The notes below the pieces were generated by a model that worked only from the letters and a program-made list of their open reading frames with translations, had not been told where the DNA came from and made no database searches. Source: Chrysomallon squamiferum (Eukaryota > Mollusca > Gastropoda > Neomphalida > Peltospiridae). From it: 64,000 bases of DNA. Shown here in pieces: positions 37,571 to 63,928 of this stretch (positions are counted from its first letter, which is position 1; every line of letters begins with the position of its first letter). The position numbers and the translations under genes are program-made. The stretch is from positions 7,553,884 through 7,617,883 of the forward strand of contig CM022672.1 in NCBI GenBank assembly GCA_012295275.1, given 5' to 3'.

Positions 37571-38044
37571 CTACATCTGTGGTAAATCTCTTTTATGTTG
37601 TCTTTCATGTTCCCATCGTCTGTTTTTAGATGTGAATTCTTCACCACAGTATCTGCAAGTAATGGTCCCAGTGTGCAGCTGCATGTGAATGGACAGTTCA
37701 TACTTATCCGAAAAATGTCGAGGACAGAGACTGCAGTGAAAAAATTCACCTGTGTGTACTCTCATGTGCCTTTTCAGATTGCCCTGGTATTCAGTACGGA
37801 AATCGCAGTGTTGACATTTGTGCATTTTGACATCACGGAACTGAGAATTCATGAAAGATTGGTAACTCAGTGGTGAAATTGATGATCCTGGCATCTGAAA
37901 ATCAATTTTTAATGCCATGTCATCTGCACCGCTTTCCATTGTTGACCCTTTTTCATCGAGGATGCAGTCTGAGTTCTTGCTAACAGAGCCTGATGCATCT
38001 GGTAAAATATCAGAAACTTTGCTCTGTCCATCACCCTGTGAATT
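37571..38044 (-). CDS. Alternative terminal exon: three C2H2 fingers
   Basis: It begins after a TTTTCAG acceptor in phase 0 and ends with a stop after 157 residues. A Ser/Asp-rich linker precedes three fingers. Finger 1 is CQHCDFRTEYQGNLKRHMRVH, with specificity helix around EYQGNLKRH. Finger 2 follows through a TGEFF linker (CSLC, helix SDKYELSIH). Finger 3 is CRYC with helix SKNRRWEHERQH. The spacing and the phenylalanine-rich linker match the seven finger exons at 49-60 kb closely, so this is the same exon family. Confidence 0.82.
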   Translation of the reverse strand, partial: NSQGDGQSKVSDILPDASGSVSKNSDCILDEKGSTMESGADDMALKIDFQMPGSSISPLSYQSFMNSQFRDVKMHKCQHCDFRTEYQGNLKRHMRVHTGEFFHCSLCPRHFSDKYELSIHMQLHTGTITCRYCGEEFTSKNRRWEHERQHKRDLPQM

Positions 38045-41000
38045 CTGAAAATTACAAAGAATGTCATTACAACAGGCCAAGTAAATGAAAAAATTTATAT
38101 TACTGTCAGTCAGCCACACTATATAACTATTATTAAAATTGTTGTCTGTAAATACTTATAGTTTTTAAAAAAACCTAATAGTATTAATAAACATTATATT
38201 CATTTTATTAAATATTGCCAAACAAAGAAGAATATTTATTTTAGACTGTACAAGTACCAAACCATTTATCCAGCAAGTTGGGACTGGACATGATCTAGAT
38301 TTCAGGAAATTCCATTTTTCTGTCCCAGGGCTTGATGTGTGTTTAAAATAAAATAAACAATGAAATATTTAACACATTAATACACATGTATTTTTCTTGT
38401 TAATTCCAGTTTTCAAGAAGTGGATAAATGGTCCAATACCTTATTTTATGAAATAAGATGTATTTGAATGTGTTCACGTACGTATGTATAAATGTGCCTA
38501 ATATGCTATTACAAAAAGACAAAACACCAATATAAAATCAACTGAAAAGAGAAAAGACATAACAATGAGAGATTACTTTGTAATAAGTGCAGTCTCATAA
38601 ACAATAACTTCAAATTAATTAGATGGAATAAGGATATTTACATAACACAAGAAACTAAACAAAAAGGTACAGGAAGGGTAAAGCAGGAAATATCACAAAT
38701 ACTACAGACATCCCTATCCTTTTAATTTATGTTTTCCTAAAACAAATCAACATATATTATTATTCTGTAAATTTTGTGAATCTAATTGAAACTTTGTTGA
38801 ATTTTAAAAAATTATCCTAATATTTACTATATTCATTTTCGCTTAAACTTGCCTTATCTCCATAAGATTAAATTTGCTAACTTTGGTTAAAGTCTGAATG
38901 CATCTCGTCGTTGCCTGCTTTAATATTTAACAAAAATAGCTTTTCTTGTTCCCTTTGTTTCTTTCGTTCTCGATATTTCCTCATTCTTATCTTTGTCTTT
39001 TCATTATAGGCCAGTCTCTGTTCGTAAGTCATGCAAGCTGACCAACCATCTTTGGAAACTCGGCACCGACGTGTGCTCGACATGAAACCACAGCGATTGC
39101 CTGCCTGAACAACCCAAGATGGTTTCGATCTCCGATGTATAAGAGTATTCATCTGCAAAGACAGAAGCAGGCAGACAAGTAAACTATGGCCGGTCTCAAA
39201 TTGGCTAAGTCAGAAAATTAGCCCAGTGGATGTTTAGCGACTGTACAACCAGTATTAAATTATATCACAGTCTTCTCATCTTTGCATCCAGATGACTGAA
39301 TCTCAGTCCAAAGTAACTAAAAATATTTCTTCCTTTCTTTTTCCACTATTTTCAGTATGAGGTATTTCACTGCTGTTAACAGTACCCTGTATTTCAATAT
39401 GATAAAAATCTTCTGTCTAAACAACACAAGATGGAATTCTGTTATTTATGTATTTAATAATTTATCCGGGAGTGTTTTTATAATATAAAACAATCTGTTT
39501 CATTTATAAGTTATAACTAACAATTTTCTTGTTTTTCTCTTTTCTCTGTGGAACAGTGATTATTGTTCCTATTATTTCTAATAATGAAAATTATACATTG
39601 TTATAAAGTAGGGAATATTATCAAACTGTACACAAGTCATTTGATGTTCCAGTTATTCCTGGAGAAAAGTCACATGACCAGATAAATCAGGCATTTTATT
39701 TCAGTTATCTTTCTGTTAGCATAAATGAGCTGATATTAACACAGTTAGTTATGTAATTTACTTTCTACTGAGGAAAATTAAATCAATATCAAGGACAGAA
39801 TTTTATGTTTATTAAATATTTTTAACTAAAAATCAGTATGAAAAATTTCAATTTGTGTTTTTTTTGTTGTAAATTCTTCTTGTATGAGCATGCTCAGTTT
39901 GAAACAAGTAGACTAACATTTATTTTACCTTTAGAATTTTCCTTTATACATTACACCACTCTTTTCACTAAGACAATGAAAAATCGTAAAAAATTAGGTC
40001 TCCTTTTTATCTGGTTTTCATTCACTTTTTTTATTTTTATCTATTTTTTTTCTTATCTCTGTTAAACAACAAGAACTAAACAATCTAAAAGCAAAGAAGT
40101 TTGGAGGGATTTAAAGAGACAAAAACAAGAATGTTAAAAATTTAAACTAAACATACCTTAAAATCAGTATCCGTAACAGTTTCATCTGACGTGTTCAAAG
40201 TACTGTTTGCTTGAAAATTATTGACCGACTGTTCAGACGTGTTCCCTGTGTTAGTGGACTGCTGATCACTGCTTTCTTCTGTTGGGATCTGAATACTTGT
40301 ACCACCACTATCTACAAATGTGTCAGTTTCATCTTTTATTACCACAGAGTCTGGTAAAGGCATTGCTATTTTATCTGATAGATCTGCCGTTGCACGGGGC
40401 TCTTCACAAAATGACTCGGCAGCCAGACTCATTACATAGTTTGCATCAACCTTTTCTGTAACAATAACAAAAAATTATTAAAATGATGAGAGAAATTAAT
40501 ATATTTTAACAACTTAATACCATTCAACAAATTTTATTAAAGATGTAACATCTTTAAGCTAAAATAAAAGAATACAAATATTCATCTACTGTTAACACTG
40601 CTCCCTCAAAAAAAAAAAAAGAAAGCACAACCAGTTTTAAAAAGTTCAGGAAGAAGATAATGTTCTATTAATGTATTTGACAGAAAAATAAAAACCTTTT
40701 TTGTTATTTGGAGAACCAACAAGGGAATCCATTGTGCTTCTTTTAGTCCCTCTACAAGGTGATGCAGTGTGGGTAGGCCATTTTGTACTTTGTTCATGTG
40801 ATGTCTCAAATTCAGTCAACTCCTCCAATGATGCAGATGTGATTGTGTGTGTTCTTCCATGTAAGGATGATGAGGGCTGCGAAGAAGTAGATTTTCGGTA
40901 GCGGTTTACCATGGTATCGACAGATTGCCTCTGTCCCCATCTTGAATTGGACATCTTAGCTGGAGCTATATTCTCAACATCTGTGTTTTTCTCAGGTAGT

Positions 41001-43957
41001 TTTTTAACTGTTTTGAAGGCCTTTGTGCAGTAACTTTCACTTATCACTTGACCAGTGCTCTGGACAAACTCACTGAGAACATATCTCTCCTTTTTGATGT
41101 TGTCTATTTCCAGAGCCAGGTATCCACTCAGTTCAACACCTTGCTCAAAGTGGAGATAATCGCGACACAGCTTCTGCATTGCATCAATGAAGGAAACAAA
41201 GAACTCAACAGAATACTGCTTATCCATTATGCAATTTTCAGCATAAATCTGGAAACAGAAAAGAAACAAGGTCAATAATGTGTGGTCTTAAATGTTAAAA
41301 CTGCTTAGTCTTCCTTAACCTAAACAAATTAAACCAAAAAAAATTAAGTCTTTAAATAAAATGCAAAGAGAAAAATATAAATAATGTGGTTTTACATTAA
41401 TCTTTTTATTTCTTCTTATTATTTTTTTTTTTTTTTTTTTTTGCTGTGTGTCACGTTTTAGATCAGTTTCATAATGAATTATACTAACAGTCACAGTTAG
41501 AAGAAAGCTAAAAACGAAATGTCCACTGGTGTCTATCAGTTCCACAAATATTTTACACAACTCTCCAAACTATATGGTGGCTAATGAAAACTGATATTTA
41601 AATTGTTCTATCTGCTAAAAAAGCGCAAAGTACCATTTTCCTTTTGACATCATAGGATGTCAGTGAAGTGATAATTAAAATATATTATACTGAAATTCAC
41701 AGAGTATTTACAGATCTAGATAGAATGAATACAAACTAGAATAGTTTTTAGTAATAACCACAATGATCTTATCCTCTGTTTAATAAAAACCTAACAGTGG
41801 ACCTGCAATCAGTATATCAAAATATATTATAAAACAAAAGCACTCAACTTTAGCATAGGTACACTATGTAGAACTATTTATTATCTAAAATCAAATAAAT
41901 GAATAAACAAGTTTCACACCCTTTATGGATGATTTAGTTGTTATGATCTATACTCTGTGAAGATAAAAGGGATTGACAACCCAGAATGGTGATACTTTAT
42001 ATTACAGGACCCAATGTTTAAAGGCTTTGGAGGAACACTGTTCAACTATCTGAATATTGATTCAAGAACCAATGAAACAGCAAAGAGATCCATTATAAAA
42101 CCATTCTAAAACAATAATATGCATTATTAGTAAAAGGATAATGGTCTGTATATAAGCTATTGTGAAGCATTTCATCTAAAAACTGAATGTTGATCTATTG
42201 TTAAAAAATTATTTTTACATTTTTCTAAATGTCAGTTATTTCTATCTATATAACTGATATGGAAAAAAATAATAATATTTAAATAAATAAATAACCATTA
42301 TTACAATTATTTTGGCAGTATAATCAAGTATGATAAAAGTACAATGTGGTTTTTTCCCTTACTGAGACTTCATATACACACATCAGGTAAATACAATCAC
42401 CTAGATTTAAATTATGTTACTTTTGTCAAGCATATTTACAAAAATCATTTCTTGACTTAAACAAAAAGACAAATGATAAAATTAAGATTTGTATGAGGTC
42501 TGTTTGCAAAAATAAATATAAATAAAATAGCGCAGTATCTTTAAATTTGAGTTCAGTGATCTTGCAGTCAAGTTGTACATTTCATATGCACTAGAAAGGA
42601 ATAATGCTATTTAAATGATTATATTATTAAAATACATTAATTTATAAACTTAATATTATTCAGTGCATGTTGTTTATGTTTTTAATAACTTATTGCTTTT
42701 CTGTATTCTGACGTTTATCATACATATAATATGAATAGATTCAGAAATGAATGAATTATGTAAATATTTCTTTGCCATAATGCTGGGTGAATGAATGTAT
42801 ATATTCAATAACAATATAATAATTTTTTTTAAAAACACAAAAAACCCACTATAGTAGTGAAATTGTGTGTGTGTGTTATTATTTACAAACTGTTTTAATT
42901 TCTTTAGGGCAAAAAAAAAAAGTCTAATTAAAATACCATTTTAAATGGTGTCCAAACTTATAAATATTATTTTGTTGCTATTCTATATGCATACGAACCA
43001 AACATTTAGGGATGTCTAACACTAATGCTATAACATACTAATACTCATAGTCATGATACTGCAATGGCAAAGTCATGTGAAAGTGGGTTGTATTCAATAT
43101 GGGAGTACACCTTGTAAATTGTAATTGATCATTGTTTAGGGTATAGAAGGATTAAATTCCCATTATAATTTTGTTTAAATATTACTAATGCAAACTCAGA
43201 TCGATGCTGGGTACAATAACTAATCTAAATGTATATATCACTACTTGTACAGTAGTAATACTAAGTCTAATAGGCTCCGCTGACGCGCTTGCATAAACAT
43301 ATTGATGATAATTGATAGTCATACATTGACTGGGAAAGCTCCAGTCTTGTGACGTTTATTAATAATTTCATTTTCAAATAACAAATTCTAAGAGAATCAT
43401 ATGAATTATAAAACAGTTGGTTCTTAATTAAATGCGACCTATATTACATGTTTATAACTTTATATTTCAGGTCAAAATACTGAAATAGTCCGTCGTTTAT
43501 TTCTCCGACAACCAGTCCAATGTTTTGACCCTTTGTTTCATTAGTGTCTGAGAACTAATGATTTTCCAGCATCAGTATGCTCATTTTACATTTTTTACTT
43601 CATTTTCGTTTATACAGCTTCTCTGTCGGAACAATTTACAGCCTCACTTTATACAAATATCACAGAAAATCGTAATTTCGCAGAGTGTATTTGAAATTAT
43701 AATAAATTTAATGAACGGAAATAACCGATTATGGCCGAATGTTGCCACATAATCATAATATTCTCAAGCCGCTAATTCAGCAGTATTTGTTTATAAGAAA
43801 TCATTTTAATGTAATAACAATATCATAAATAACATAATAAACTTGTAATTATATTCATCAATCTGACCTTTATACCCGAAACAAGTAGATTAAACAAAAA
43901 CACGATTTCGCTTGTCCTGGATGATTTAGACTGGTTTCCTTTTGTTTCTCCGCTCAT
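37571..43957 (-). CDS. Zinc-finger gene with shared 5' exons and alternative terminal exons
   Basis: Three coding exons form a 314-aa constant region: 43868-43957 (ATG, 30 codons, ends phase 0), 40696-41248 and 40157-40455 (ends phase 0). Two stop-containing exons that also start in phase 0 lie downstream: 38877-39152 (91 aa, basic) and 37571-38044 (157 aa, three C2H2 fingers). Predicted proteins are 405 and 471 aa. Residues 15-100 look helical (LFNLLVSGIK, FFVSFIDAMQKLCRDYLHF), with no BTB, SCAN, KRAB or ZAD signature I recognise. A Ser/Thr-rich linker and an acidic stretch follow, with a sumoylation-type VIKDE motif. A nuclear transcription factor is likely. Both terminal exons carry their own stop, so they should be alternatives. 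The 40696 donor (AAG then GTTTTT) is weak. Function is unknown. Confidence 0.72.
38254..38440. mobile_element. Possible 187-bp MITE between the two terminal exons
   Basis: The inverted ends share ACCATTTATCCA, with looser similarity continuing inward (GACTGGA against AACTGGA). TA flanks both sides as a possible target duplication. The superfamily is not recognised. It sits in the intron between the basic and finger terminal exons. Confidence 0.4.
38877..39152 (-). CDS. Alternative terminal exon: basic, non-C2H2 C-terminus
   Basis: A strong acceptor (GTCTTTGCAG) is followed in phase 0 by 91 codons and a stop. Unlike every other terminal exon here, it has no C2H2 finger. It has four Cys residues and then a very basic run (KTKIRMRKYRERKKQREQEK) that resembles a bZIP basic region but without a leucine heptad after it. 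It could be DNA-binding, a nuclear localisation tail, or an exon spliced in place of the fingers to make a finger-less, possibly antagonistic isoform. The role is inference. Confidence 0.65.
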   Translation of the reverse strand: MNTLIHRRSKPSWVVQAGNRCGFMSSTRRCRVSKDGWSACMTYEQRLAYNEKTKIRMRKYRERKKQREQEKLFLLNIKAGNDEMHSDFNQS

Positions 43958-45738: not shown

Positions 45739-47791
45739 TTTTTCATCTTTGAACTTCTTTGAAGTTGCATTTAAGTCTATGTAGCTAATTTATTTATATT
45801 TGTCTGGTATATGTTTTTAATCATTTTCGATTATTAGTATTATAATTTTTATATGTTTTAATTTTTTAAATTTATTGTGTGTGTGTAATTGTTTATTAAA
45901 GTATTTTTAGACGCTCGTAGCTATATGTTGTTTATTATGAGTGTATTTTGTGTAACTAATGTTAGTTTATTTATATTGACCTAGATGTCATGTTTTGAGA
46001 GGTTGAATGAAATATATCCAAAACTGCTTTTGATGAAGAGAAACGACATATAAAACATATTTATTTGATGAGACAATATGATTACAAATACTTCAAATAA
46101 ATAAAAATGCCAAATTTTATCCAGTATTAAGCTGATACTGAGTGATTTTCGAAAATTTCCGTAACTTTAAATATTTTGTTGTGCATTCTGCTAATTCAGA
46201 TAGAAAATACTTCAGCACCAAGAGTTCGCAGTCTGATCGTTTTCATTATGAACCAAAACAGAATAACACACACAAAACAGTATAACACTCACTAACGTCA
46301 GTCTCAAGCAGATTAAATCTCGTATCGGCAAATGAAAACCGTGTATTGCTATTTTCCTGTCAGTAGCTCTGTTTAAAAGTATGCAGAATTTAATCGAATA
46401 AATAAATAAATGATCAAGAGATTTTGCAAAATGATTATATATAACTTGAAATAATCATCTGTCCACCATGTCACGATTCCACTGTAATGGGGTAACGTGG
46501 CGGCTGTGTAATATTTATATTACTTCTCACTTTGTTACGTGCCCAAACATTTTGTTAATAACTGTTTTGCACTTACTAAATCTCAAGCTTAATAATTTAT
46601 TTATTTATATATTTTGTTGTCGTAGCTGACAAAAATGACGTCAGTGGTCGTTGTTCCGTCTGTTTCATAATTAAAATGACCAAACAATGAACTGAGGATG
46701 TTGAAGTGTTGGCAGGCCAAGTCATCAAATTTCAGACATTACAGAAAATTATTATTTTTGTAACTATATGTATTTCCAAGGATGACAATTATTAACGTTT
46801 CTAAATTCATTTTTATTAATATTTTACCAGCATGACTCAAGAACCTACCCCTTCCCAATTATTTAACGAAATGATTAATTTTTCCGTTATCCTCATCTCT
46901 CTCTTACACACATGCCATACATAATTTAAAAACAAAACACCCCCACCTCAAAAAGAAAAAAACACCCCCAAAAACCCCATAAAAAAAGCAACAGCAAAAA
47001 ACTCACAGACACCAAAAACATTTATTTAACACACTTGGAACTAGAAGTGGTTGGATTTCTGGATTGTGAGATTTTGGATGTAAACTGAATCTTTACTTAA
47101 AATATAAAATGAAGAATGAAGCTGTATTGAATATATCTATACCAGTTAATATACTTCTAAAGCAGAGTCAGTTTGATCTTTAATAATTCACCTCATATTC
47201 TTAAATGCTTGTATAGAATATGCTTTTCACTACCAAGCTACATTTCTGCTGGTCTTTTAGACAGTAATAACTTTTTGTGAGAGGATCATCTGCACACACT
47301 TAAATTGGCTTCAGAGAAATTAATAAAATAAAGTATGCCTAATTCAAAAGAAGCCAGTTTCATGAATGGTTATATAACAAAATAAAAAATAAAAATAATT
47401 ACAATAAATAATAAGAAGAAGAAGACCTAACAACAACAACAACAACAACAACAATAATAATAATAACTAGCAATGATAATAATTATAAAAATCTTTTTGC
47501 ATTACGTAATCTTCTGTAAAACTGTGAACTGAGGATACTGAAGTGCTGTCACTTTGTGTCAACAGAATGCAGACATTACAGTAATATTATTTTTGTAACT
47601 GTTCATTTCCAAGGATGTAGAACTGTGAAAAGCAAAGAGAAAACAACAATTATTAAGTTTCTAAATTTATTTTGTTTACTCTTTACCAGCATATCTTAAA
47701 AACATACCACATTCCACATGTCCCTTCTCTACAAATAAAAGGACACCATTCACATTTGCTGCTGTTACAGTACTGTACTAGTATTCATTTA

Positions 47792-49194: not shown

Positions 49195-49530
49195 TCATCT
49201 ATGGCTTTTTTCATGTAACACCAAACCTTTCTGAGAAGAGAAAGTTTTATCACAAACACGACACTCGAGTCCCCCTGCATGTCCTTTAAGGTGAATAAAT
49301 AGCTGATATCTGTCATAGAAGTAGCTTGGACACAAGTGGCAGCGATAGAAGTCACCACTGTGTCGACGTTGATGACGTTTCAGATTGCCAGGCTGGTTGG
49401 TCTGATAAGCACACAGAGAACATTTATGCATCTTTATAACAGCTTTTGAACACGGCCGTCTCTTCCTCCACTCTGCACACCCTCCATCAGAATACTCAGA
49501 TTCATTGTATGTGTCATTGTCTGTCCTTTC
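49195..49530 (-). CDS. Alternative terminal exon E7: three C2H2 fingers
   Basis: A TTTTTTCAG acceptor is followed by 111 residues in phase 0. An acidic lead-in (ERTDNDTYNESEYSDGG) and a basic patch (WRKRRP) precede three fingers: CSLCAYQT with helix NQPGNLKRH, CHLCPSYF with helix YDRYQLFIH, and CRVCDKTF with helix SQKGLVLH. The stop follows the last finger at once. No ATG starts this exon sensibly, so it needs an upstream partner exon. The nearest upstream sequence on - is another terminal exon (E6). Confidence 0.8.
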   Translation of the reverse strand, partial: ERTDNDTYNESEYSDGGCAEWRKRRPCSKAVIKMHKCSLCAYQTNQPGNLKRHQRRHSGDFYRCHLCPSYFYDRYQLFIHLKGHAGGLECRVCDKTFSSQKGLVLHEKSHR

Positions 49531-49948
49531 CTGAAAAACATAAACAGTTTGAAATAATTAATTCTATGTATGATGTAGACAGTGGATGCTTCAGTTTATC
49601 TTCTCTGTTAACATACTGTTGAACAATAGTGTAAAAGGATACTCTCAACAGTCCTCTACACAGATTCTACTTGAACAAAATAATCATCTTGAAAGAATTA
49701 ATTGTAATTTCCACCTTGTCAAGAAGACAAGTGTTTTACATGTTTTGTATCTATATCCATCTGTATCTATCTATATCTGTCTATATAAACACACACACAC
49801 ACCTAATATACCACAGCTAACTTAACCAGTATTAGTTCTTCAAGTCTACTATGACTAAACAATAGAAAACTTGATTAAACTTCGTACACTTCATGATCAA
49901 TTATTCTTGTACTTGAAGAATGTTCATTCACCAAGTTATTCATCTAGA

Positions 49949-49952
<4 letters not shown>

Positions 49953-49979
<27 letters not shown>
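49953..49979 (+). repeat. (TG)n microsatellite
   Basis: A pure GT dinucleotide run between finger exons E6 and E7. Confidence 0.8.
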
Positions 49980-49982
<3 letters not shown>

Positions 49983-50491
49983 ACTTCAAATCTATCTTGA
50001 ATCATGTCCATATTGCCATTCAAACTATTTAATGGAGTTGATCCGTATTCACATATACACACTCATCCACCTTTCTGTCTTCTACTACCTCTCTGTAATT
50101 TTTATCACTACACCAGTAATCTGTAAAAAGAAAATTTCTTTTTGTGACTTTTATATTGTAATGAAAAGAGAAAAAACAAAAAAACAAACTGAATAATTTT
50201 AATGTCAAAAATATTTTACACTTTTGTTATTTTGTTTTTGATTACAAAGGATGTACAAAAGATTAATTTAAAATATATATATATATATTTTTTTAAGTGA
50301 ACATTATTTTGTTAATTGTTTTTGTTTTTGTAAGAGAGAACACTGTGCATGCACTGTGTTTATGTAATTGTGTGTGTTTACCTGTATCCACATTTTTAAA
50401 TTTTGATAAATTTCATTACAAAAATATATATTGATAGTCATAACAGTTCATTTATATAAATTTGATACTGAATTGACAACACACAAGACAT

Positions 50492-51115
50492 TTATTTGTG
50501 CAAGTGTGACTTTTTGTGCTTGGCTAAACCATCATATGACACAAACAGCTTTCCACAAAATTCACAGGCCAGTTTGGAAAAATGAAGTTTCAGATGTTTC
50601 TTCAGCCGATAGGCATCAGAAAAGTGACAAGGACAGAGGTGGCAGTTAAAAAAGTCACCACTGTGGATTCGCTGATGACGTCTGAGGTTGTGAAAGTAGG
50701 ATGTGTGGTAAGAACACTGACTACACTGGTAACAGTTTTCACTTCTCTGAGAATTAAACTTGACACTGTTACCCGCAGATACATATTTCACATTTGTGGA
50801 AGATTTGGTCCCAAACAGATTTTCATGCATGATATTCTCTTGTGTTTGCGTCATGAAGCCTTCAGAAGTCTGATCAGACACATTGGTTTGTCCAGTCAAT
50901 TGGCCATGGACATCGTTGCAACCAGCTATGTCACTAGTAACTCTTTGATGTCCTGTGATTTTGAAGTTAGAACTACCACTTGTATAAAAACCAGGATCTA
51001 ATCTAGTGACATCATCATGGTTCTGCATCTTCCTTTCCTGATCCTGTTGAAACTGCATGGATGATTTCATGTCTTCACTATTCTTGTACACTGATCTTTG
51101 ATCCCGTACACATTT
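50492..51115 (-). CDS. Alternative terminal exon E6: long linker plus three C2H2 fingers
   Basis: A CTTTCTAG acceptor is followed by 207 phase-0 residues, the longest exon of the array. About 120 residues of polar linker precede three fingers: CSQCSYHT with helix SYFHNLRRH, CHLCPCHF with helix SDAYRLKKH, and CEFCGKLF with helix SYDGLAKH. The HSGDFF linker between fingers 1 and 2 is shared with E3 and E7. It ends in LHK-stop. The + strand frame that overlaps it (50582-51001) is its antisense shadow. Confidence 0.8.
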   Translation of the reverse strand, partial: KCVRDQRSVYKNSEDMKSSMQFQQDQERKMQNHDDVTRLDPGFYTSGSSNFKITGHQRVTSDIAGCNDVHGQLTGQTNVSDQTSEGFMTQTQENIMHENLFGTKSSTNVKYVSAGNSVKFNSQRSENCYQCSQCSYHTSYFHNLRRHQRIHSGDFFNCHLCPCHFSDAYRLKKHLKLHFSKLACEFCGKLFVSYDGLAKHKKSHLHK

Positions 51116-51669
51116 CTAGAAAGCAGAAACAATACATTGACTATTTTGATAGCAAACCATCTGAGAACAACATACAAAATAACTATTATGTAATGTTAAG
51201 AAAAATGCTTTTAGTAAATTTCGACTGCAGACAATCTCACTGATATTTCTAGGAGACTTTGCCATGCACCATAATCAGAGATTCTGCAGTTTATACCAGT
51301 TATCACAATAAAAAAAATATATAACTGTACATTTATAATTGTACACTGAGTGTATGTATGTAATGATGGATGGACGGATGTATGTATGTAAGCATGTATA
51401 GGTATGTATGAATGTATAGATGTATCATTAATAATTAGCTAATTAATAAAAATATGTATATAACAGTGTTTATTATCTTCAATTCATATCAAAACTGTAT
51501 TTGTCTTCAAACAGGACATAATATTTACACTTGGTCTGTCATGTTGAGTTTAACAACATGTAACAACATGATTGTCATGCATTTACTGTTTCTAACCCAC
51601 TGCAGGTTTCATTGTAATAATAACAGCTTTTAAATGTAAGTAGGCCAATAAGAATCACTGCAACATGTA

Positions 51670-51935
51670 GTCTGTTGAGAGTACATAAAACTATACCATG
51701 TCACGAGATACACTGCTATGAAGTATTTTGTTGTGAATTCATAAAACCATACCAAACTGTGAGGTACATTGCTATGTTGTGTTATGTTGAGAGTACACTA
51801 AACTGTACAGTACCATTAGATACCCTGATGTGAAGTGTTATACTATACCAAATCATGAAATACACTGGTATGAAATGTTATGTTGAGAGTACACTAAACT
51901 GTACCATGCCACAAGATACACTGCTACTTTGACTT
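51670..51935 (+). repeat. Imperfect minisatellite, about 55-60 bp unit
   Basis: Four to five degenerate copies of a unit containing GAGAGTACACTAAACTGTACC followed by ATACACTGCTATGAAGTGTTAT. It lies in the intron upstream of E6 in transcription sense. No coding potential. Confidence 0.6.
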
Positions 51936-53159
51936 ATGAAGTGTGAATTTGGGAACAAGTGCCTTAACATCATCTATAAATTTTAATTCATGAGTGCTAA
52001 TATTTTATTATTAGTTTGGATACTGGCTTTCTGAATTTCTTCTTTAAAATGTGGTACTACAAAACTGGCATTCATGCACACTGGCACACATGCAGATGCA
52101 TGCACATATGCACAAACACACACAAATTTTCATCTGGTGATTAATATACATAATGTTTTATGAAACCAATTTATTTATACAACGACAGAATAAAAGATGT
52201 TATAACAAAAAAACAAAATACAATTGTACTGAAGTTCTTATTTAATACAATAAATATTTCACTTATCAACAACAAAAAAAAAGTAATTAATAAAAAATCA
52301 AATTATGATAAAACACAAACATATTTACATCTCAAAACACTTTTAAAGGACATGTTATCTCAGCATATAAAAAGGAATTGACTGTATCTACATTTATGCT
52401 AAAAATCTCAGAATAAATTCTGAATAACATTACATATTTTCATTTACCTTCAATAAAGAACAGACAATTGTGAAGTAGTTACAAATGGATAGATACTTGA
52501 TAGACAATTTGAAATTTTGTTATCTTAGCAATGGTGCACAAAAAGGTAATACATAAAAAAAAATACAAATAAATAAGAATAAAAATATTTTTAAAAATCT
52601 CTAGATATAAAAAAAAAAATTAACAAATGTAATATTAAAAATCTATAAAAAAATAATTTAAAAAATGTACAAAAATTTCTGAATGAATCACGTATGGGCT
52701 ATATAAGCTTCCCGGCAATTAATTACCAAATGAAAGAAAATGTTTATTTTGTTATTCATACATGTATACAGATTAATGTGTTATATTATGTGACTGATGT
52801 TCCTGTTTGACAATTATCTTCTGTAATTGTCTAAGATCTACATTTCAGCTTATTTTGTTTTGATTATTTAATAATAAAGCTGAATTTTCCATTTTCATGT
52901 TTTTTACAGCATAAGCTCCATTCACCAAGTAACTGCAAAGCAGTACAAGTGAACACATTTTAAAAAATAACAAACTTGTGAACATTTTCACAAACATTAC
53001 CGAATTATCTTTGAAAATTACTGCACTGATAATTTTGTATAAAAATAAACAAAGATACAAAAAAAAATTCACAAAAGTTAATGGCTACTTATGATTTTAT
53101 CTTGTTGAACAGCCCTAGATGTTACTGAATTTTGTGGGTTTTTAAATGTTTTTATTTTA

Positions 53160-53365
53160 AAATTTTATTTCCAATTTGTCACTAAATCTGTTTGATTTTT
53201 ATGTTATATTCAAACTGTCAGTGAATCTGTGCCATTTTTATCTCCAAACTGTCAATGGATTTTTGCGTTTTTTTCGTATCTCCAAACTGTCACCAAATTT
53301 TTTGTGATTTTTATCTTATCTCCAAATTGTCACTGAGTCTTTGTGATTTTTATTTAATCTCTTTG
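53160..53365 (+). repeat. Minisatellite, about 45 bp unit, in the E5 3' UTR
   Basis: About five degenerate copies of a unit like ATCTCCAAACTGTCACTGA followed by a T-rich spacer with GTGATTTTTAT. It starts about 40 bp beyond the E5 stop, so it would lie in the 3' UTR of the E5 isoform (its complement in the mRNA). Confidence 0.65.
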
Positions 53366-53406
53366 TTGTTATGAAGTCTGTGACTCTCTGTGATGTGATT
53401 TTAATC

Positions 53407-53763
53407 TTATGTCCTACTCATCATTGCCTCGTGATTTTTCTCATGTCTTTTCAGTGATTCATCAGTGCTGTACTTTTTCCCACAGAATCGACACGTAGGT
53501 GTGTTGATGTGAACCTTCAGATGCTTCATAAGTCTGTGTTTGTCTGAGAAGTGACACCTACACAGGTGACAGTGAAAGAAATCTCCTGTGTGTATTCGTT
53601 TGTGTCTTTTCATAGCATGCTGGTAAATAGTCTGATAATTACACGAGTCACAGAAGTACATCCTCTTGCCAGACTGTGAAACCATTCTCCTTTTCATAAT
53701 CCGCATTTCTCGTTCTTGTCTCCTCCTATAGTTCACCACTTGTAACACACCAACACTGTCATG
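53407..53763 (-). CDS. Alternative terminal exon E5: three C2H2 fingers
   Basis: A TATTTTTTAG acceptor is followed by 118 phase-0 residues. A very basic lead-in (RRRQEREMRIMKRR) precedes three fingers: CDSCNYQT with helix IYQHAMKRH, CHLCRCHF with helix SDKHRLMKH, and CRFCGKKY with helix TDESLKRHEKNH. The stop comes nine residues after the last histidine. The basic lead-in could act as a nuclear localisation signal. Confidence 0.8.
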   Translation of the reverse strand, partial: HDSVGVLQVVNYRRRQEREMRIMKRRMVSQSGKRMYFCDSCNYQTIYQHAMKRHKRIHTGDFFHCHLCRCHFSDKHRLMKHLKVHINTPTCRFCGKKYSTDESLKRHEKNHEAMMSRT

Positions 53764-54973
53764 CTAAAAAATAAAATTTGTTCTAAATAAATATACTGAA
53801 TTTTTTTAATTTTAATTATTATTTTTTTTTTTTAAAGTTTTGTAGGTTTTACCGAGTCTGTGGGTATATGAAGGGATTTGGGTGTAGTAGATCAAGATGT
53901 ATCTTCTAATTTAGTTTTTTTTTTCTTCTTATTAAAAAAAACTTTTGTTGTGGCTAATTTTCAAGTTATGAATATAACATATTTTTTTCAAATCAGTTTT
54001 GTAAAAAAAAAAAAAAAAAAAAAAGGTTACAAAATGAAGAAGTGAATAACCATTTACATATATATTTATACATTAATTCACAGAACCACTTTAAATTTAA
54101 TTTTAACACAACATTATGCTCTGAGTTGACTAAGTTGTAGGAGAAACAAGTCACATTTTGTGTCCTAGATTACCACTGAGAAACAACTGTTTTTAATAAT
54201 AATTGGTGTTATTAAATGTTAGTCATGTCTACAAAGGAATGTTGAAAACACCTTTCTTTTTATGACCATTAACTGGGTGTTGTGAAAGAGACAAGACAAA
54301 GTGATCAAAACACCAGCAGTTTTTACAAAGCATGTTCTTTTGCTCTCTCTCTCTCTCTTTCTCTTGCAGTCATTCTTTTTCTATTTCTGTCTCTATTATC
54401 TCAAACAAACATACACAGAATTTTTTCAGAGGAAACCTACTATATTTTCCCTATATTTTTTATTTTATATAAAAAGATAATTTAATTAATAAAGTTATTT
54501 TATTATTTTCATTCACAGCCTGTTCTAACAAATTCGACAAACTCAAACTCAATAAAATCATCATTCACACTTCTAGACATATATATTTAGATTTTATGAA
54601 CCAGTTTCAACAACGAGGATGATAACATTTTTTTATCTCACAGTACTTCAAACTGAGTCCATTTACTGGGCAAAAATATAAAACATTTAAAAAAAAAAAA
54701 AAAACTGAAGAAGAAAAAAAAGTGAAAGAAAAATTTGACATATCTCAGGTATTAATTTTCAATAAATATTTTATATTTATACAGATATCTTATAAAGTAA
54801 TTGCATTAATGTCATTCAGTGAAATATTTAAGAATAACAAACAGCAGACTATCATTCAAATGAGTCCAGAACATCTGAAATGTCTGTTACCAATTCCATA
54901 ACAGCTAGCTACAGAAATCGTGCACTAGTTAAGTTAGGTTAACTGAACCTGTCAAACTAACAGCTCCGCTAGG

Positions 54974-55405
54974 CTATCTAAATCCCATTCTATGTTTGCT
55001 CATGTGAGAATTTAGTCCACTCATAGACTGACACTGTTTAAAACAGATCTTGCACTTCAGTTCCCCAACATGGCCTTTAAGGTGTCCCTGAAGCTCATAA
55101 TTGTTGATAAAACTTCTATGACAGAGGTGACAAGGAAACCGTTCTCCAGTATGCACACGTCTGTGTCGAATGAGATTGTATTTGAGCTTTGTTTGGTAAC
55201 AACATTCACTACACTTCAAAATTTCACTGTCCTCAGCTTTCTTTTCACCTGTCCGCTGCTCTTGTCTGATCCAAGAGGGAACCGGTTTTGACCGAGATCC
55301 TCTATTTCCCAGCATCCCTGATTTAGAAACAGTCTGATTATATTTTCTGAAATCTGACACAAGATTCTGTAGCATGTCCATGGCATCGCCTCCCATCATG
55401 GAACT
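54974..55405 (-). CDS. Alternative terminal exon E4: three C2H2 fingers
   Basis: A TTTTGTAG acceptor is followed by 143 phase-0 residues. Fingers: CSECCYQT with helix KLKYNLIRH, CHLCHRSF with helix INNYELQGH, and CKICFKQC with helix SMSGLNSHMSKH. The first two fingers combine features of the E1/E2 type (YNL-RH, NNY-L) with the three-finger layout, so E4 looks intermediate between the two sub-families. In finger 3 the usual aromatic residue after the cysteine pair is replaced by Cys. Confidence 0.8.
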   Translation of the reverse strand, partial: SSMMGGDAMDMLQNLVSDFRKYNQTVSKSGMLGNRGSRSKPVPSWIRQEQRTGEKKAEDSEILKCSECCYQTKLKYNLIRHRRVHTGERFPCHLCHRSFINNYELQGHLKGHVGELKCKICFKQCQSMSGLNSHMSKHRMGFR

Positions 55406-56373
55406 CTACAAAACAAAATGTATTGCTGTTTAGACTTATGAAGCACTGTCTGGTTCCACCATTTCACTGGCCACTCAATTCAGATCACGTTCGACAAACC
55501 TGCTACATTAATCAGTGGTATGTAAACAAAGTTTCTGAATTGATTTCACTGTATGAGAACAAAAAATCAAATGAATTTTATTTTGGAATAATTATGTTTT
55601 ATATTAAAAAAAAAAAAAAAAGAAAAAAAGATAAAATTAAAATTAAATTAAATTAAAAAAAAGAAAAGAAAAATTTAGATTTTCCCTGTAAATTATTTTG
55701 TCACACACAATTTGTATTTTTTTTTTTTTTCTATTTAAATATTTTTATCTCTTGTCACTGAAATAAATTAAAATAAGTGTTAAAGTGTTTTACAAAACCA
55801 CATTTCATGGCTTGTATTTGCTTTGATATGAACCGATTTTTCTATACTACTGGTATGTTGCAACGTATTCTTTATGATATTCAGTTTAAAAAATTATCAC
55901 AAAAAGAAAACCATTTTAAACCACAGACTTTTAAAACAAATTTAATACCAAAATTCAAACAATTAATTCAGTCAGAACAGCTGCAGTAGAACTATAATAT
56001 AGACAACTTTTTTTTTTTTTAAACCTCTGAAAACTAACAGCTCTTTATTCAGAATATATATTCAGAAGTTCTGCCATCACATACAAAAATAAAATTCAAA
56101 AACAAAATATATATTTCTTTTTAAAACAATCTTTTAGCACAACTCAAATAAACCATGTGTATTCAACAAGCAGTTTTTAAATTAATTTAACATTCAGAAC
56201 CAAAATATCACCAGAATAAAATATACAGGAGATATATTGCTGCAGTCAACATTTAAAAACATTCTCTCTCTTCATTCTGATCATTTGTGCATATCACAAT
56301 TTAGAAAAGTATTATGTATAAACGATATGTTATTTTTTCCAGTTTAATTTTTCCTATAATGTTGTTTTAACTT

Positions 56374-56850
56374 TCAGCTCTTCAGAATGTGATTTTTGCA
56401 GTGATGCTTGACGTGACAGTCTAGGCCATGTTTAGATGTAAACTGCTTAAAACAGAACTGACACTTCAGTTTTCCTTCATGTCCCTTCAGATGCAGTCTG
56501 AGATGATGTGAGTCACAGAAGTGACAGGGACACAAGTGACACTTGAAAAAGTCACCACTATGAATTCGCTGATGGCGTTTCAGATTCCCCAGCTGTTTGC
56601 TCTCATATGCACAATGATCACATTTGTAAACTTTCTGAAAGAAATGTAGATCTCCATGATTCTCTGTTTCTTCAGACTGCCTCACAGAACTAGCAACATG
56701 ACATCCAGAACTACTGAAAACATTTCTTTTATCACAAGCTTCGTTAGAGCCCAATGTTGATGAAAAGCTCCTGTCCGGAAAGTTGTGTTTTTGAAGAAGA
56801 GGACCTAATCCATTCTGTGCACTCTGATAGACCATGGCAACATTAGTTTG
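56374..56850 (-). CDS. Alternative terminal exon E3: three C2H2 fingers
   Basis: A TTTTTCTAG acceptor is followed by 158 phase-0 residues. A Ser/His-rich linker precedes fingers CDHCAYES (helix KQLGNLKRH), CHLCPCHF (helix CDSHHLRLH) and CQFCFKQF (helix SKHGLDCHVKHH). The HSGDFF linker matches E6 and E7. The tail after the last finger is short (CKNHILKS). Confidence 0.8.
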   Translation of the reverse strand, partial: QTNVAMVYQSAQNGLGPLLQKHNFPDRSFSSTLGSNEACDKRNVFSSSGCHVASSVRQSEETENHGDLHFFQKVYKCDHCAYESKQLGNLKRHQRIHSGDFFKCHLCPCHFCDSHHLRLHLKGHEGKLKCQFCFKQFTSKHGLDCHVKHHCKNHILKS

Positions 56851-58594
56851 CTAGAAAAATAAATGAACATTTCATTGTAGTCTTTCAAAACTCCAGCTGA
56901 AACCAAGTTTGAAGAATAAAATGCATGCATTTTCTTTTCAATATGTAGATTCTTTTCTTCTTTGTTTTTCTTTTTTCTTCTTATAGAATATTACTCTTTA
57001 TTTTTGAAAAAAAAAAAAAAAATTTTTTACAGAGGTGGGAAGTAAATTTTGTGCCTATAAATTTAATCATCTTTTGTAAGTCATGAACTCAGATCAGCTT
57101 TAAAATATTAAGTAATGTACAAAAAAAAAAAAAAAAAAAAAAGTGTAATTAATAAATAAAAATAAAATAATAAACTTCATTTCTGTCAATATCTTAGTAT
57201 TTCATATGATAGTTAAAGCTGAGAATTACGACCTTCCAAAAATAAATAATGTTCAAAGAAACATCATCAGTGATCATTGTTAGTATTAGGACAAAACAAA
57301 CAGCTTTGTAAAATAACTTTATTTTCTGGTCAAATTATTTAATGTTATTTAATAATAATTTGTGTGGGAGTTTTAAGTTTTCAAGTGCATGTCAAATTTA
57401 AACTAACATATAGAATCACAAAACTGGTGGTAATCACTTATGTATAATACATCTGTCTGTAAAACAGTGATTTATATACATAGTCTGATAACCTATTAAT
57501 CCTAATAAAATATTAAATATTATTATGAAAATATACAACCCACCCACCCCTCCAAAAAAAAAAAAAAAAAGAGAGAGAAAAAAAGTGTTTAGACACATAT
57601 AGCATATGATGAATATTCAATACATTTTTATTCCAAGTATGTACATTTATATTCCATTAAAGTATTATCATTGGTGTCATGTATTTTGAATTTATGAACT
57701 TTTGAATTTATTAGTTTAAAAAAAAAAAAAAAAGAAAAATGTATTAATAATACTAATAATAAATAATCAAATAAAAATATTTTGCTTTGATCAGCTGTAT
57801 TTTAACAAATCATCCACTGTTCCATAACACTGAAATGAACACAAATCATTTTTGAAATTTTGATTCATGTAAAAAAAGTTTATGCACTGAGGTTTTTGCA
57901 CACAACTAATGCATACTTATTTTCACATATACATCTATTAATCAAAAACAAAAGATATGATGAATTTTGCATTTTATCATAAATATCAAAGGAAATAAAA
58001 GGAAATAATAATAAAACAAAAGACAAATTATCACTTCTGACCTTTTCAGTAACATAAAAACCCATCACCAATGAAACATTTTCCAAAACAATTAAACCAT
58101 ATATATCTGTCTTGACTGAAAGTAAGTTCTATTCTTTGTCAACCATGGGTAAGCAAAATACACACACTACTATATGATGCTACTAAATAAATAAATAATT
58201 AATAATAATAATAATATTAACAGAGATAAATTAAACAGACATAAAAGAAAATAATGCATATTTAAAATATGATATTGCCAACAATTATAAAATTTCAATC
58301 ATCTAAATTTTTATCACATATTTCAATTAGGCATTAAATTTGAAGTAATATTTATTTGAATATTTTATTTTAATATATTCTTTTATTATTTATTACTTTC
58401 TATGATATCGACAGATCATTTAATATGTTTTGATTATTTATCTAAACAAGTTCACAGTAATTCTCACATAAATGTGCTGACTAGATCTTGTTTTAAAAGA
58501 CCTAATTTACTGAAGAATAAGGCACCAGACTTCAGAGTATGAAGTAAAACATATTTCTCCACTTTACAAATGAAATGTATAAAATTTTCATTTA

Positions 58595-58993
58595 TTAATC
58601 ACTGGGAAAATCCTCAAAGTTCTCATTTGTTAAATTAATGTGACTTTTCAGATGATATTTCAATTGGTAGTTGTCTATGTAGGTTTTATCACAGTGTGGA
58701 CATTTTAGCCTGTCACCGGTGTGAATTCGCATGTGTCTTGTCAAATTATAGTTCCTGCTGGCTTCATAACCACAAATGTAACATTTGAAGATTTTACATG
58801 CAGAGTAGTGGCCATCTCCTTTACTAAAGTAGTTAGCAGAGCTGAAAGCTGACTGACTGGCCTCAGACATTACACCTTCAATTCCTTTCTTTCGTAAGCC
58901 TAATTCCCTATCTGCAGTACACTTTGAAAACAACTTGGAGTGAGCAGGCAGTGGGTTACGTTCCACTGGAAGCAGACACTGGGTCTTCTGGCT
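58595..58993 (-). CDS. Alternative terminal exon E2: two C2H2 fingers
   Basis: A GTATTTTCTAG acceptor is followed by 132 phase-0 residues. There are only two fingers: CYICGYEA with helix SRNYNLTRH and CPHCDKTY with helix IDNYQLKYH. They are followed by a short acidic tail (LTNENFEDFPSD). It is clearly the closest relative of E1, from which it differs at few finger positions, so a recent exon duplication is likely. The third finger found in E3-E7 is missing. Confidence 0.8.
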   Translation of the reverse strand, partial: SQKTQCLLPVERNPLPAHSKLFSKCTADRELGLRKKGIEGVMSEASQSAFSSANYFSKGDGHYSACKIFKCYICGYEASRNYNLTRHMRIHTGDRLKCPHCDKTYIDNYQLKYHLKSHINLTNENFEDFPSD

Positions 58994-60149
58994 CTAGAAA
59001 ATACAAAAGATGCTAGTGTTCAGGGATCTATAGTTACATGTTAAGTTAAAGGATTGAGAAAAAAAGGGAACTGTTGAGTTCACATTTTCTTTTCATTTTT
59101 TGTTTTGTTTTATGTTTCAGTCTATGTCATGTTAATGTTCATAAGGAAAAAGCCAGCCATTAGATAATTTAAGACAAATGGTGGAAGTCTTAAAGGGACA
59201 GTGCTTATTAAAACAATGAACAACAAAAACAAAATAAAGTAATGAATGCATGATAAAGATTGCATCCTGAACATTCTAAAAATAAAAATAATTTAAAGTC
59301 TTTTGACATCTATGCTTGTATATATTGATATTTTCCATGTATCCACGAAGGTGACACAGACTTGATATGTGAAAAATAAATTAACAAATGTTATATGTTA
59401 CAAATCAGAGATCCAAGCAGACTGTATAAAAGTTTGTACAATCAATTCACTGCACAGTATTCCAGCCACACCCTTCAGTAACTTCTCATTATGATCCATG
59501 TTAGTATCCATAAGAATATATTTTATTACATGCAGTAATTTAGTCCTTGTTAGCACCATAACAGCATGATTCAGTGAAAAGCACTGCCTCTGACCTGACT
59601 TTTCAAACTCAAATCAATTCTCAGTGTTTTGTATTTATATTCTTAATCTTATATATAATACCATTTACTTATATATTTATCATTAACTCTACCCTCTTAC
59701 ATGTATCACAGACTGAACTGAAATAATGCTGTTTACAAATATATATAAATGTTTTGAGAGCCCTATGAACCAAATGTTTAACACAAAGATTTTCAAGAGT
59801 TTAAAGTTACAGCATTTCATAACATATATTAAACTATTACTGCTCTTGATGGCAAGTATTCTGTATTTTTAGTTGAAAGACTTGTGCAAAAAATTATTCC
59901 AAACAATAATGGCTGTATAATTTTTACCAATGCTTTTTATACAAAACTTTCCAATCTACTTTAACCCTAGTTAACATGTGTGGCTCACAGCACTTCTCAC
60001 TGGCATCATACAGGTTGAGATTTCAGCCTGCAATACTAACAGCAGTTCCAAAGTGAAAATCATGCCATGCCATTAAGCATCCTGAATACATTGACAGAAG
60101 TTTAAAAATGTTTTCTTTTTTCTTTTTGAAATTGTCTTCTCTCCAGTAA

Positions 60150-60551
60150 TTAATTATTTACTGCAGTCCTGTCAGGAATACAAGTTTGTTGTGAACCTGT
60201 CTCTTGAGAAAAGTGCTCATTCACACACAATGGCAGTGAGACTCGGTTATGACTTTTCATGTGATATTTCAACTTGTAGTTGTCGATGAATGTTTTGTCA
60301 CAGAAACAACACTTGAATCTTTCACCTGTGTGTGTGCGCATGTGTCTGATGAGATTATAGTTTCGTTTTGCTTCATACCCACAAAGATCACACCTGTACA
60401 CCTTCAAGGTGCAGCACTGAAAGAGGGAAGCATTACAGAGGATGGAACTGGTCTGTCCTCGGAACATAGACAGTGGGTCAGGGCTTCGCTGTGAAAGCCA
60501 GTCAAAGTCAGAAGTGTGAGCTTTGTGTTTCACTGTCTTCATCTTCAGAGT
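60150..60551 (-). CDS. Alternative terminal exon E1: two C2H2 fingers
   Basis: A TTTTTTCTAG acceptor is followed by 133 phase-0 residues. Two fingers: CDLCGYEA with helix KRNYNLIRH and CCFCDKTF with helix IDNYKLKYH. A 35-residue tail without a third finger follows. It is the most upstream finger exon in the window. The constant exons it joins should lie further right (upstream on -), and nothing between 60552 and 64000 looks like one. Confidence 0.8.
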   Translation of the reverse strand, partial: TLKMKTVKHKAHTSDFDWLSQRSPDPLSMFRGQTSSILCNASLFQCCTLKVYRCDLCGYEAKRNYNLIRHMRTHTGERFKCCFCDKTFIDNYKLKYHMKSHNRVSLPLCVNEHFSQETGSQQTCIPDRTAVNN

Positions 60552-60990
60552 CTAGAAAAAAACAAAAGACTTGGGTTGTTTTATCCATAGCCAAGTATCC
60601 TCACTGTGGGTTAATTAGTTAACAACAGTTCTTTTTATCAGATAGACACTCCTCACTGACAGATTTATGCTGTAAACTGAAAACGCTTTGCTTTTTTTAA
60701 TATTTTATTTTATATATATATATATATTACAAAACCAGTTAATAACTACTGAAAATATGGAAAACTGGATAACACTAGTTGACTAATATTACTACTACTT
60801 TAAATAAAACATGATGCAAATAGGTAAAATGAGAAAATAATTATTTAATCCAAATATCTTTTTGTTAAATTAAAAACGTGTCTGAGTAATTTTTCTTAAT
60901 TACTGCAGAGGTTACAACCTGTTCTAATAACTGACTTTGAAAGTTTGTCAACAGGAAAATATTAAAACAATTTTTAAGGCAAATTGGATA
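60552..60990. other. Intron-like spacer upstream of E1
   Basis: AT-rich with a short (TA)n tract near 60712-60726. Nothing coding is seen. Confidence 0.5.
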
Positions 60991-62459
60991 GTTATGAAAA
61001 TTTAAATATTTTCATTCGGTTTGTGTAAATAATTTGCATTTATAACACTGTCAGTGAATGTAATAAAACAGTATTACAGTTTTTTTAAAGATATGTAATG
61101 AATTCGCTATGTTAATGTGCATGTACATTTGCATACATGCTTATCAGTATAAATATTAATATTTTTAAAAGGTATGGTATGTACGTTTTAAAACATTTTC
61201 CCATACATTATATTTATAATCTCTATATAATGACAAATTTATATTATAAAAATCTCTCATATAAATTTTTGTTTAAAAAAAAAAAAAGCATAATTATATA
61301 CAAACTATATATCAAGTCATTAAACTAGAAAAGTGATGTTGATAAGAAACTCTTTACATTTACAGTAATTCTAAAAGAAAATCTTTTTTCGTAATATATT
61401 AAACAATTATTAAATCATTTATTCAAAGATTACACTTTTTTTACATTGTCTGGAATTCTAAAATCAGCAATATTGTAATTATATATAAACCCATCTATAC
61501 CTTTACAAAACCATTTAATGTCTAAGGTTTTAATTATTAAATAGAATTCTGACAGTACTTAAGGAAATAAACAAAGATGTTATCATTGTGTTATTAATTT
61601 CCTCCAGCCTGCAGAAAGTGAACTGTTTATAAGACTCTACAGGAGAGATTTTCTAAAACAAAATGGTATTAAATTAAAGATATAATCATGATATACTCTT
61701 TACATACAAACATTTTACAACTGAACAATTTCAATGGTTGAAGTGGTAAGAATGAAACATAGATACCAAAACCTCATACCAAAATAAAATTAGTTCATCC
61801 AACTTCAACATGTCCACTGAGACTTCACACTATAACTGGATCTGTTATGATCTGTCATCTTTTCATGTTTATCATTTTTCATTTTTGATATTTTATGTTT
61901 TAAAAGAGATCATTTTTTCATTGCTCCTATGGTTTCAACTATGTTTTGGGGTGATTTGGGGCGTTTGGGATTTTTAAATTTTATTTTTATAATTTCAATT
62001 TCTTTGACTGCTTACTTAACAATAGACTCTTACATCATCATGGAGCTTTAGTCTTGCACTGGTACTTCTATCCTTCTTGCACAGTATTCAACCATTCACC
62101 AATGCCAAATGGTACATGGATATATAGCTTTTTTTAACTCTTCAGTATTGTAAGATTTGATTCCTTATAAAGAAATATTCTTAAATGTTGTAGTGAATTC
62201 ACTGAAAATATACATCTGTTGTTGTAGTCAGTGACTATCACCAGCTTCTCTGTCTTGGAAGATAACTTGTCCTGTCCATTACAGAAAAACACTTGCTTTA
62301 ATTATGTTATTGCTCAGAATATTGCTGAATGCTGGATTTTTATTCAGAATTTTTTTGTTGTAACTTGTATTATGTAAATCACAATACAATCAAAACTTGC
62401 ATTAAGAATATTTCTGCCAATGAATCAGATCAATTGTGTCCACACTGCAAGCAGAACCA
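60991..62459 (+). repeat. Tandem duplication, copy 1 (1,469 bp)
   Basis: This segment recurs immediately as 62460-63928 at an offset of exactly 1,469 bp. I saw only about two substitutions between the copies (for example near 61018 and 61264), including an identical A-run. No exon, finger or transposon termini are recognised inside. The 63-codon frame at 61137 is not convincing, being low-complexity and Tyr/Lys-rich. Confidence 0.9.
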
Positions 62460-63928
62460 GTTATGAAAATTTAAATATTTTCATTCAGTTTGTGTAAATA
62501 ATTTGCATTTATAACACTGTCAGTGAATGTAATAAAACAGTATTACAGTTTTTTTAAAGATATGTAATGAATTCGCTATGTTAATGTGCATGTACATTTG
62601 CATACATGCTTATCAGTATAAATATTAATATTTTTAAAAGGTATGGTATGTACGTTTTAAAACATTTTCCCATACATTATATTTATAATCTCTATATAAT
62701 GACAAATTTATATTATAAAAATCTCTCATATACATTTTTGTTTAAAAAAAAAAAAAGCATAATTATATACAAACTATATATCAAGTCATTAAACTAGAAA
62801 AGTGATGTTGATAAGAAACTCTTTACATTTACAGTAATTCTAAAAGAAAATCTTTTTTCGTAATATATTAAACAATTATTAAATCATTTATTCAAAGATT
62901 ACACTTTTTTTACATTGTCTGGAATTCTAAAATCAGCAATATTGTAATTATATATAAACCCATCTATACCTTTACAAAACCATTTAATGTCTAAGGTTTT
63001 AATTATTAAATAGAATTCTGACAGTACTTAAGGAAATAAACAAAGATGTTATCATTGTGTTATTAATTTCCTCCAGCCTGCAGAAAGTGAACTGTTTATA
63101 AGACTCTACAGGAGAGATTTTCTAAAACAAAATGGTATTAAATTAAAGATATAATCATGATATACTCTTTACATACAAACATTTTACAACTGAACAATTT
63201 CAATGGTTGAAGTGGTAAGAATGAAACATAGATACCAAAACCTCATACCAAAATAAAATTAGTTCATCCAACTTCAACATGTCCACTGAGACTTCACACT
63301 ATAACTGGATCTGTTATGATCTGTCATCTTTTCATGTTTATCATTTTTCATTTTTGATATTTTATGTTTTAAAAGAGATCATTTTTTCATTGCTCCTATG
63401 GTTTCAACTATGTTTTGGGGTGATTTGGGGCGTTTGGGATTTTTAAATTTTATTTTTATAATTTCAATTTCTTTGACTGCTTACTTAACAATAGACTCTT
63501 ACATCATCATGGAGCTTTAGTCTTGCACTGGTACTTCTATCCTTCTTGCACAGTATTCAACCATTCACCAATGCCAAATGGTACATGGATATATAGCTTT
63601 TTTTAACTCTTCAGTATTGTAAGATTTGATTCCTTATAAAGAAATATTCTTAAATGTTGTAGTGAATTCACTGAAAATATACATCTGTTGTTGTAGTCAG
63701 TGACTATCACCAGCTTCTCTGTCTTGGAAGATAACTTGTCCTGTCCATTACAGAAAAACACTTGCTTTAATTATGTTATTGCTCAGAATATTGCTGAATG
63801 CTGGATTTTTATTCAGAATTTTTTTGTTGTAACTTGTATTATGTAAATCACAATACAATCAAAACTTGCATTAAGAATATTTCTGCCAATGAATCAGATC
63901 AATTGTGTCCACACTGCAAGCAGAACCA
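62460..63928 (+). repeat. Tandem duplication, copy 2 (1,469 bp)
   Basis: Head-to-tail second copy of 60991-62459. The junction shares only AGTTATG-scale sequence, and the end (GCAGAACCA) recurs at both copy ends. The near identity means either a very recent duplication or an assembly artefact (uncollapsed haplotypes or a false tandem). Confidence 0.9.

Follow-up and report, generated by a model that had tools for sequence, protein, structure and literature searches.

The stretch analysed here (the window) comprises 64,000 nucleotides of the gastropod Chrysomallon squamiferum (contig CM022672.1, C8 in the following, positions C8:7553884-7617883). It very likely contains the 3' part of a transcription factor locus, designated gene 1, in which one constant N-terminus is combined with at least seven alternative last exons. 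A single gene could thus probably specify at least seven different DNA-binding proteins. This reading is based on the order of exons, their phases and stops, matches to the isoforms of a related snail, and the presence of the same layout at other loci.

The seven finger exons span positions 49195-60551 of the window and are all located on the minus strand; reading them on the plus strand yields sequences full of stops. On the minus strand all seven are open, are entered in phase 0 and consist of an individual linker, individual fingers and a terminal stop, and neighbouring exons are 1.0-2.3 kb apart. The sequence-only reading of this stretch, in which the strand was unstated, had placed all seven intervals exactly, and its description of phase 0 entry, two or three fingers and a stop per exon was confirmed (two fingers at 60.5 and 58.9 kb, three elsewhere). 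Each exon is preceded by a pyrimidine-rich run and by TAG in six cases and CAG in one (49530). Between 12 and 16 of 20 positions are pyrimidines at these acceptors, compared to a mean of 10.1 at 1681 YAG sites (Y, pyrimidine) on the minus strand of the window, and for four exons only 2-10% of these sites are equal or better. Pfam C2H2 models match all seven exons at E < 0.001, and in six of them at least one model passes its curated cut-off. In the 56.4-kb exon several models are found at E < 0.001, the best reaching 23.7 bits against a cut-off of 27, while in the 53.4-kb exon PF00096 is below and PF13894 above the curated value. Applying a strict C2H2 motif, 23 occurrences were detected in the window, 22 in exons of gene 1 and of a neighbouring gene 2 described below and one stray at 54327; in 20 block-shuffled copies of the window, a crude control, there were none.

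Constant exons for the seven endings were located by fetching about 29.5 kb beyond the window end and by a protein search of the whole genome (404.6 Mb, 22 contigs). Two such exons lie about 4 kb past the window end, on the minus strand and 5' of the seven. Together they encode 336 residues, a domain of about 75 residues (N-domain) followed by a long linker, and they are 67% and 54% identical to the N-terminus of the counterpart in Gigantopelta aegis. The second ends in a donor of phase 0, the phase shared by all seven acceptors, and the first finger exon follows at a distance of about 7.5 kb. This intron contains two tandem copies of a 1.47-kb block (60990-62459 and 62459-63928) with 99.86% identity, which arose either by duplication very recently or as an artefact of assembly.

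In a database search with the N-terminus of gene 2 as query, 114 proteins were obtained at E <= 10, every one below 1e-20: 98 models from G. aegis, eight from Haliotis, and eight unnamed ENA entries. When entries identical over at least their first 200 residues were grouped, 14 groups had two or more entries and diverging tails. The largest has 19 entries, all with C2H2 motifs, and in a fingerless group of 11 entries nine are tagged PF05225 (Psq). Seven Gigantopelta entries, P0076-P0079, P0082, P0083, and P0085, are identical over residues 1-369 and diverge thereafter. Two of them carry the name LOC121382774, the rest other names, and the isoform numbers fit. When the seven exons of gene 1 were compared with a set of tails, 62 of them containing a C2H2 motif, the best match was in every case a tail of these entries (six tails), and for six exons the match was reciprocal. 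The two endings of gene 2 have counterparts in P0001 and P0002, which share residues 1-291 and have tails matching the 38- and 39-kb exons. Orthology is likely for LOC121382774, LOC121384214, and sister loci, as judged from the shared N-domain and tails matching exons of the window. Some of the sister loci have Psq, BEN, or DUF3504 tails. The Gigantopelta models are named only as assorted zinc finger proteins or as 'uncharacterized', so that annotation spreads the products of one gene over several unrelated zinc finger names.

Conservation between the two snails is concentrated in the fingers. Gene 1 exons and their Gigantopelta partners are 72-91% identical in the fingers and 18-48% in linkers and tails; including gene 2, the ranges are 72-100% for fingers and 18-60% for linkers, the finger residues of the 38-kb exon being identical in 76 of 76 positions. 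Retained fingers with diverged linkers are as expected under purifying selection. Residues predicted to contact DNA, helix positions -1, 2, 3, and 6, were compared in seven pairs, formed by the 58.9-kb exon, five other exons of gene 1 and the 38-kb exon. The 60.5-kb exon was omitted because it shares its partner with the 58.9-kb exon, and these two are nearly alike at the contact positions. Agreement was found at 74 of 80 positions in matched pairs versus 179 of 456 in the 42 mismatched pairs, and among all 5040 pairings only the true one reached the observed total. Predicted contact residues thus differ among the terminal exons and are retained across species, which indicates that the endings have been kept with their own DNA-contact residues.

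The same arrangement was detected elsewhere on C8. Searching the genome with P0076 yielded 26 matches, 24 to the N-domain, including a weak one with E = 1e-6, and two to the second exon, all on C8 (35.8 Mb), one of the 22 contigs. The N-domain family therefore seems to be confined to one chromosome; each Gigantopelta entry among the 114 is listed with a 91.7-Mb sequence. In the 40 kb that follow an N-domain exon at C8:28.856 Mb, two constant exons precede 18 finger frames, all 18 on the same strand. The top-scoring YAG is in phase 0, or tied with one that is, for 15 frames and in another phase for two. The exons of this array with three fingers match any Gigantopelta tail at only about 36-61%. 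A genome search with the 53-kb exon produced at least 75 matches at E <= 1e-6, a lower bound since 150 of 604 candidates were scored; the two-finger exons of gene 1 are absent from them. While 26 matches on other contigs reside in frames of 247-2041 amino acids, 49 are located on C8 in frames of 77-207 amino acids. Every one of the 49 has an N-domain exon upstream of it on the same strand, at a distance of 3.4-40.1 kb. Since the assignment was made to whichever N-domain exon lies closest upstream in the same orientation, it is the short distances that carry evidential weight. The 49 fall under seven of the 24 N-domain exons, in arrays of 6, 8, 12, and 16, with five under gene 1, one under gene 2, and one under an N-domain exon at 18.6 Mb.

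From this arrangement, transcription of gene 1 would start beyond the window and proceed on the minus strand through the two constant exons. The phase-0 donor would then be spliced in cis to one of the seven phase-0 terminal exons, each of which would be transcribed with presumably its own poly(A) site. This would yield at least seven proteins with a common N-domain, probably mediating protein-protein contact, and fingers of different DNA specificity.

Several observations weigh against this reading of gene 1. The claim of a polypyrimidine-AG before each exon holds insofar as YAG follows a pyrimidine-rich stretch in all cases, but by pyrimidine count three of the seven acceptors are unremarkable, at 56.8 kb (19% of YAG sites equal or better) and at 55.4 and 53.7 kb (28% each). 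Poly(A) hexamers occur after every exon, which is uninformative at 2.8 AATAAA per kb. The Gigantopelta isoforms are uncurated database gene models with unchecked read support. The 60.5-kb exon has no reciprocal partner of its own; its best match is P0083, where it ranks second to the 58.9-kb exon. Isoform X2 of the Gigantopelta gene, which could be its partner, is absent among the 114 matches. Moreover, neither the window nor the approximately 29.5 kb upstream, a sequence that is partly N, yielded the non-finger tail X8 of Gigantopelta. In the array at 28.856 Mb, no candidate acceptor was detected for the frame at C8:28882966. None of the 49 finger exons falls under 17 of the 24 N-domain exons, the sequence after these being unread, and one stop is present within the matched stretch in four of the 49, although for the 49.2-kb exon this is its own end.

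On the 3' side of the seven finger exons, about 8 kb downstream of gene 1, the window contains a compact second gene (Table 1). Gene 2 is a tandem paralogue of gene 1; it shares the plan of exons and phases and has two endings. In both genes the N-domain is at the start of the protein (inside the window for gene 2, upstream of it for gene 1), an acceptor is located shortly before the ATG, the constant exons are joined in phase 1, and the exit donor is in phase 0. The fingerless basic tail at 38877-39152 weakly resembles the Gigantopelta X8 tail of gene 1 (50% over 20 amino acids), and each gene may have retained one non-finger ending. Between the two genes, a frame of 139 amino acids (45373-45789, minus strand) has no Pfam match; we take it to resemble a transposase fragment of the hAT/DUF4371 type. 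In view of exon order and of the N-terminus upstream, the one at 41 kb was rejected as a candidate for the seven exons.

Table 1. Exons of gene 1 and gene 2 (window coordinates unless marked C8) and Gigantopelta aegis tails that are reciprocal best matches
Feature	Position	Strand	Properties	Gigantopelta tail
Gene 1, first constant exon	C8:7623482 (ATG)-7622864	-	619 nucleotides, N-domain, phase-1 donor	
Gene 1, second constant exon	C8:7622290-7621902	-	389 nucleotides, phase-0 donor	
Gene 1, alternative terminal exon 1	60150..60551	-	2 fingers, stop; phase 0 after TAG	
Gene 1, alternative terminal exon 2	58595..58993	-	2 fingers	P0083 (isoform X3)
Gene 1, alternative terminal exon 3	56374..56850	-	3 fingers	P0082 (isoform X4)
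Gene 1, alternative terminal exon 4	54974..55405	-	3 fingers	P0079 (isoform X5)
Gene 1, alternative terminal exon 5	53407..53763	-	3 fingers	P0078 (isoform X6)
Gene 1, alternative terminal exon 6	50492..51115	-	3 fingers	P0085 (isoform X1)
Gene 1, alternative terminal exon 7	49195..49530	-	3 fingers	P0077 (isoform X7)
Gene 2, N-terminal exon	40696..41248	-	conserved N-domain; ATG at 41227; phase-1 donor	
Gene 2, second constant exon	40157..40455	-	phase-0 donor GTATGT	
Gene 2, alternative terminal exon, fingerless basic tail	38877..39152	-	phase 0, stop	P0002
Gene 2, alternative terminal exon, 3 fingers	37571..38044	-	phase 0, stop	P0001

The presence of gene 2 bears on how many endings belong together. 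The sequence-only reading had joined the exons at 38 and 39 kb to the seven as one gene with nine acceptors. These two exons are indeed phase-compatible and on the minus strand, but they are endings of gene 2, and the window holds parts of two genes. A single N-terminus at 41-40 kb for all nine endings is very improbable. The phases would fit, and the available part of PMC1947980 reports trans-splicing for the insect gene lola. However, on their common strand the seven exons precede this N-terminus, so ordinary cis-splicing would be unable to join them; another N-terminus exists 5' of the seven, and the matching Gigantopelta tails are found on two different N-termini. A combination of cis-spliced alternative last exons with some trans-splicing, between genes 1 and 2 or between other arrays of the chromosome, appears unlikely, though less so. 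Both exit donors are in phase 0 and hence compatible, and lola is described as using both modes (PMC1947980, available part). Nothing in the sequence requires such events, however, and the Gigantopelta models compared keep the tails of the seven exons and those of the 38- and 39-kb exons on separate N-termini.

Alternatively, the seven exons could belong to separate tandem zinc finger genes with individual promoters and small first exons. In favour are that clusters of this kind are common and that the gaps measure 1.0-2.3 kb, but every exon opens at a phase-0 acceptor. A profile search of the window with the N-domain, the only kind of first exon looked for, found the gene 2 copy and no second one. 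Furthermore, the orthologous tails are modelled as isoforms with 369 identical residues, and the 49 finger exons found on C8 lie without exception downstream of N-domain exons. We consider separate genes a highly unlikely explanation. Least probable of all, to a degree that makes it nearly negligible, are duplicated exons that are unexpressed or decayed: the nine terminal exons, seven of gene 1 and two of gene 2, are free of internal stops, and their fingers are far better conserved between the snails than their linkers. Gene 1 with cis-spliced alternative last exons is thus the preferred reading.

The N-domain itself has no match in Pfam, and none, BTB included, was obtained for the constant part of gene 2 or for P0002, in agreement with the earlier proposal of a non-BTB N-terminus. 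A sequence search of PDB was also without match, and the AlphaFold model has a mean pLDDT (predicted local distance difference test) of 57, which is too low for use. The domain is found in Haliotis and Batillaria as well and, as the sole addition from a homologue search with P0140, in the bivalve Solemya; in these molluscs it is mostly joined to PF12012 (DUF3504) and not to a finger array. DUF3504 derives from Crypton transposons according to the available part of PMC3212892. The combination of N-domain and DUF3504 is possibly the older form, and we infer that the finger arrays developed later from a gene of this kind. These data suggest a wider picture that is plausible but put forward tentatively. 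About two dozen constant N-domain exons would be present on one chromosome, and five or more of these would each head an array of 5 to about 16 alternative DNA-binding ends. Such a system might have arisen in vent snails without connection to insect lola, its N-domain having originally been coupled to a domesticated Crypton (DUF3504) domain, and might provide a combinatorial pool of transcription factors forming mixed complexes via the N-domain. One testable question is whether the N-domain represents a new oligomerisation domain, and the matched endings of the two snails, together with the second array, allow a direct test of how endings are kept, gained, and lost.

The remainder of the window contains other genes on the plus strand. 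Exons for an ADP-ribosylglycohydrolase (PF03747) are present between 13575 and 19885, at 13575, 16062, and 19538. The first and the third of these are near-duplicates of each other, and the gene is partly duplicated. A frame at 11665 without Pfam match looks by eye like the start of this gene. At 7505-9910, an open frame of 802 amino acids specifies a copper amine oxidase; inspection by eye suggests that its N-terminus probably contains a membrane segment.

In the open-licence literature searched, which excludes most subscription papers, no such locus is described for molluscs, consistent with the earlier statement that no equivalent was known. The term 'zinc finger' is absent from the Chrysomallon genome paper's main text and appears once in the Gigantopelta paper. 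The comparison with lola made in the sequence-only reading, one N-terminus and many DNA-binding C-termini, is supported by the upstream constant exons and by the Gigantopelta isoforms. In lola, common 5' exons containing a BTB domain are joined to unique 3' exons, of which the majority encode zinc fingers and others do not (PMC1947980, available part). The snail genes resemble it in having constant exons 5' of several terminal exons on the same strand, with shared phase and individual stops, and in their endings, seven with fingers in gene 1 and one with and one without fingers in gene 2. Because no BTB was found and TTK-type BTBs are reported, in the accessible text of PMC11426971, to be arthropod-specific with none found in Mollusca, the snail locus is lola-like in layout but not a member of the lola/Tramtrack group of BTB proteins by descent. 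It differs also in belonging to another phylum, in a constant part without Pfam match where lola has BTB, and in having many paralogous loci on one contig. A constant N-terminus with many alternative C-termini is likewise known from mod(mdg4), which has a BTB domain and FLYWCH ends and is partly trans-spliced from the opposite strand; in contrast, the snail genes 1 and 2 have all their exons on one strand, with finger ends of the C2H2 type. The snail locus appears to be an independent case, outside arthropods and free of BTB, of one interaction domain being combined with many DNA-binding ends.

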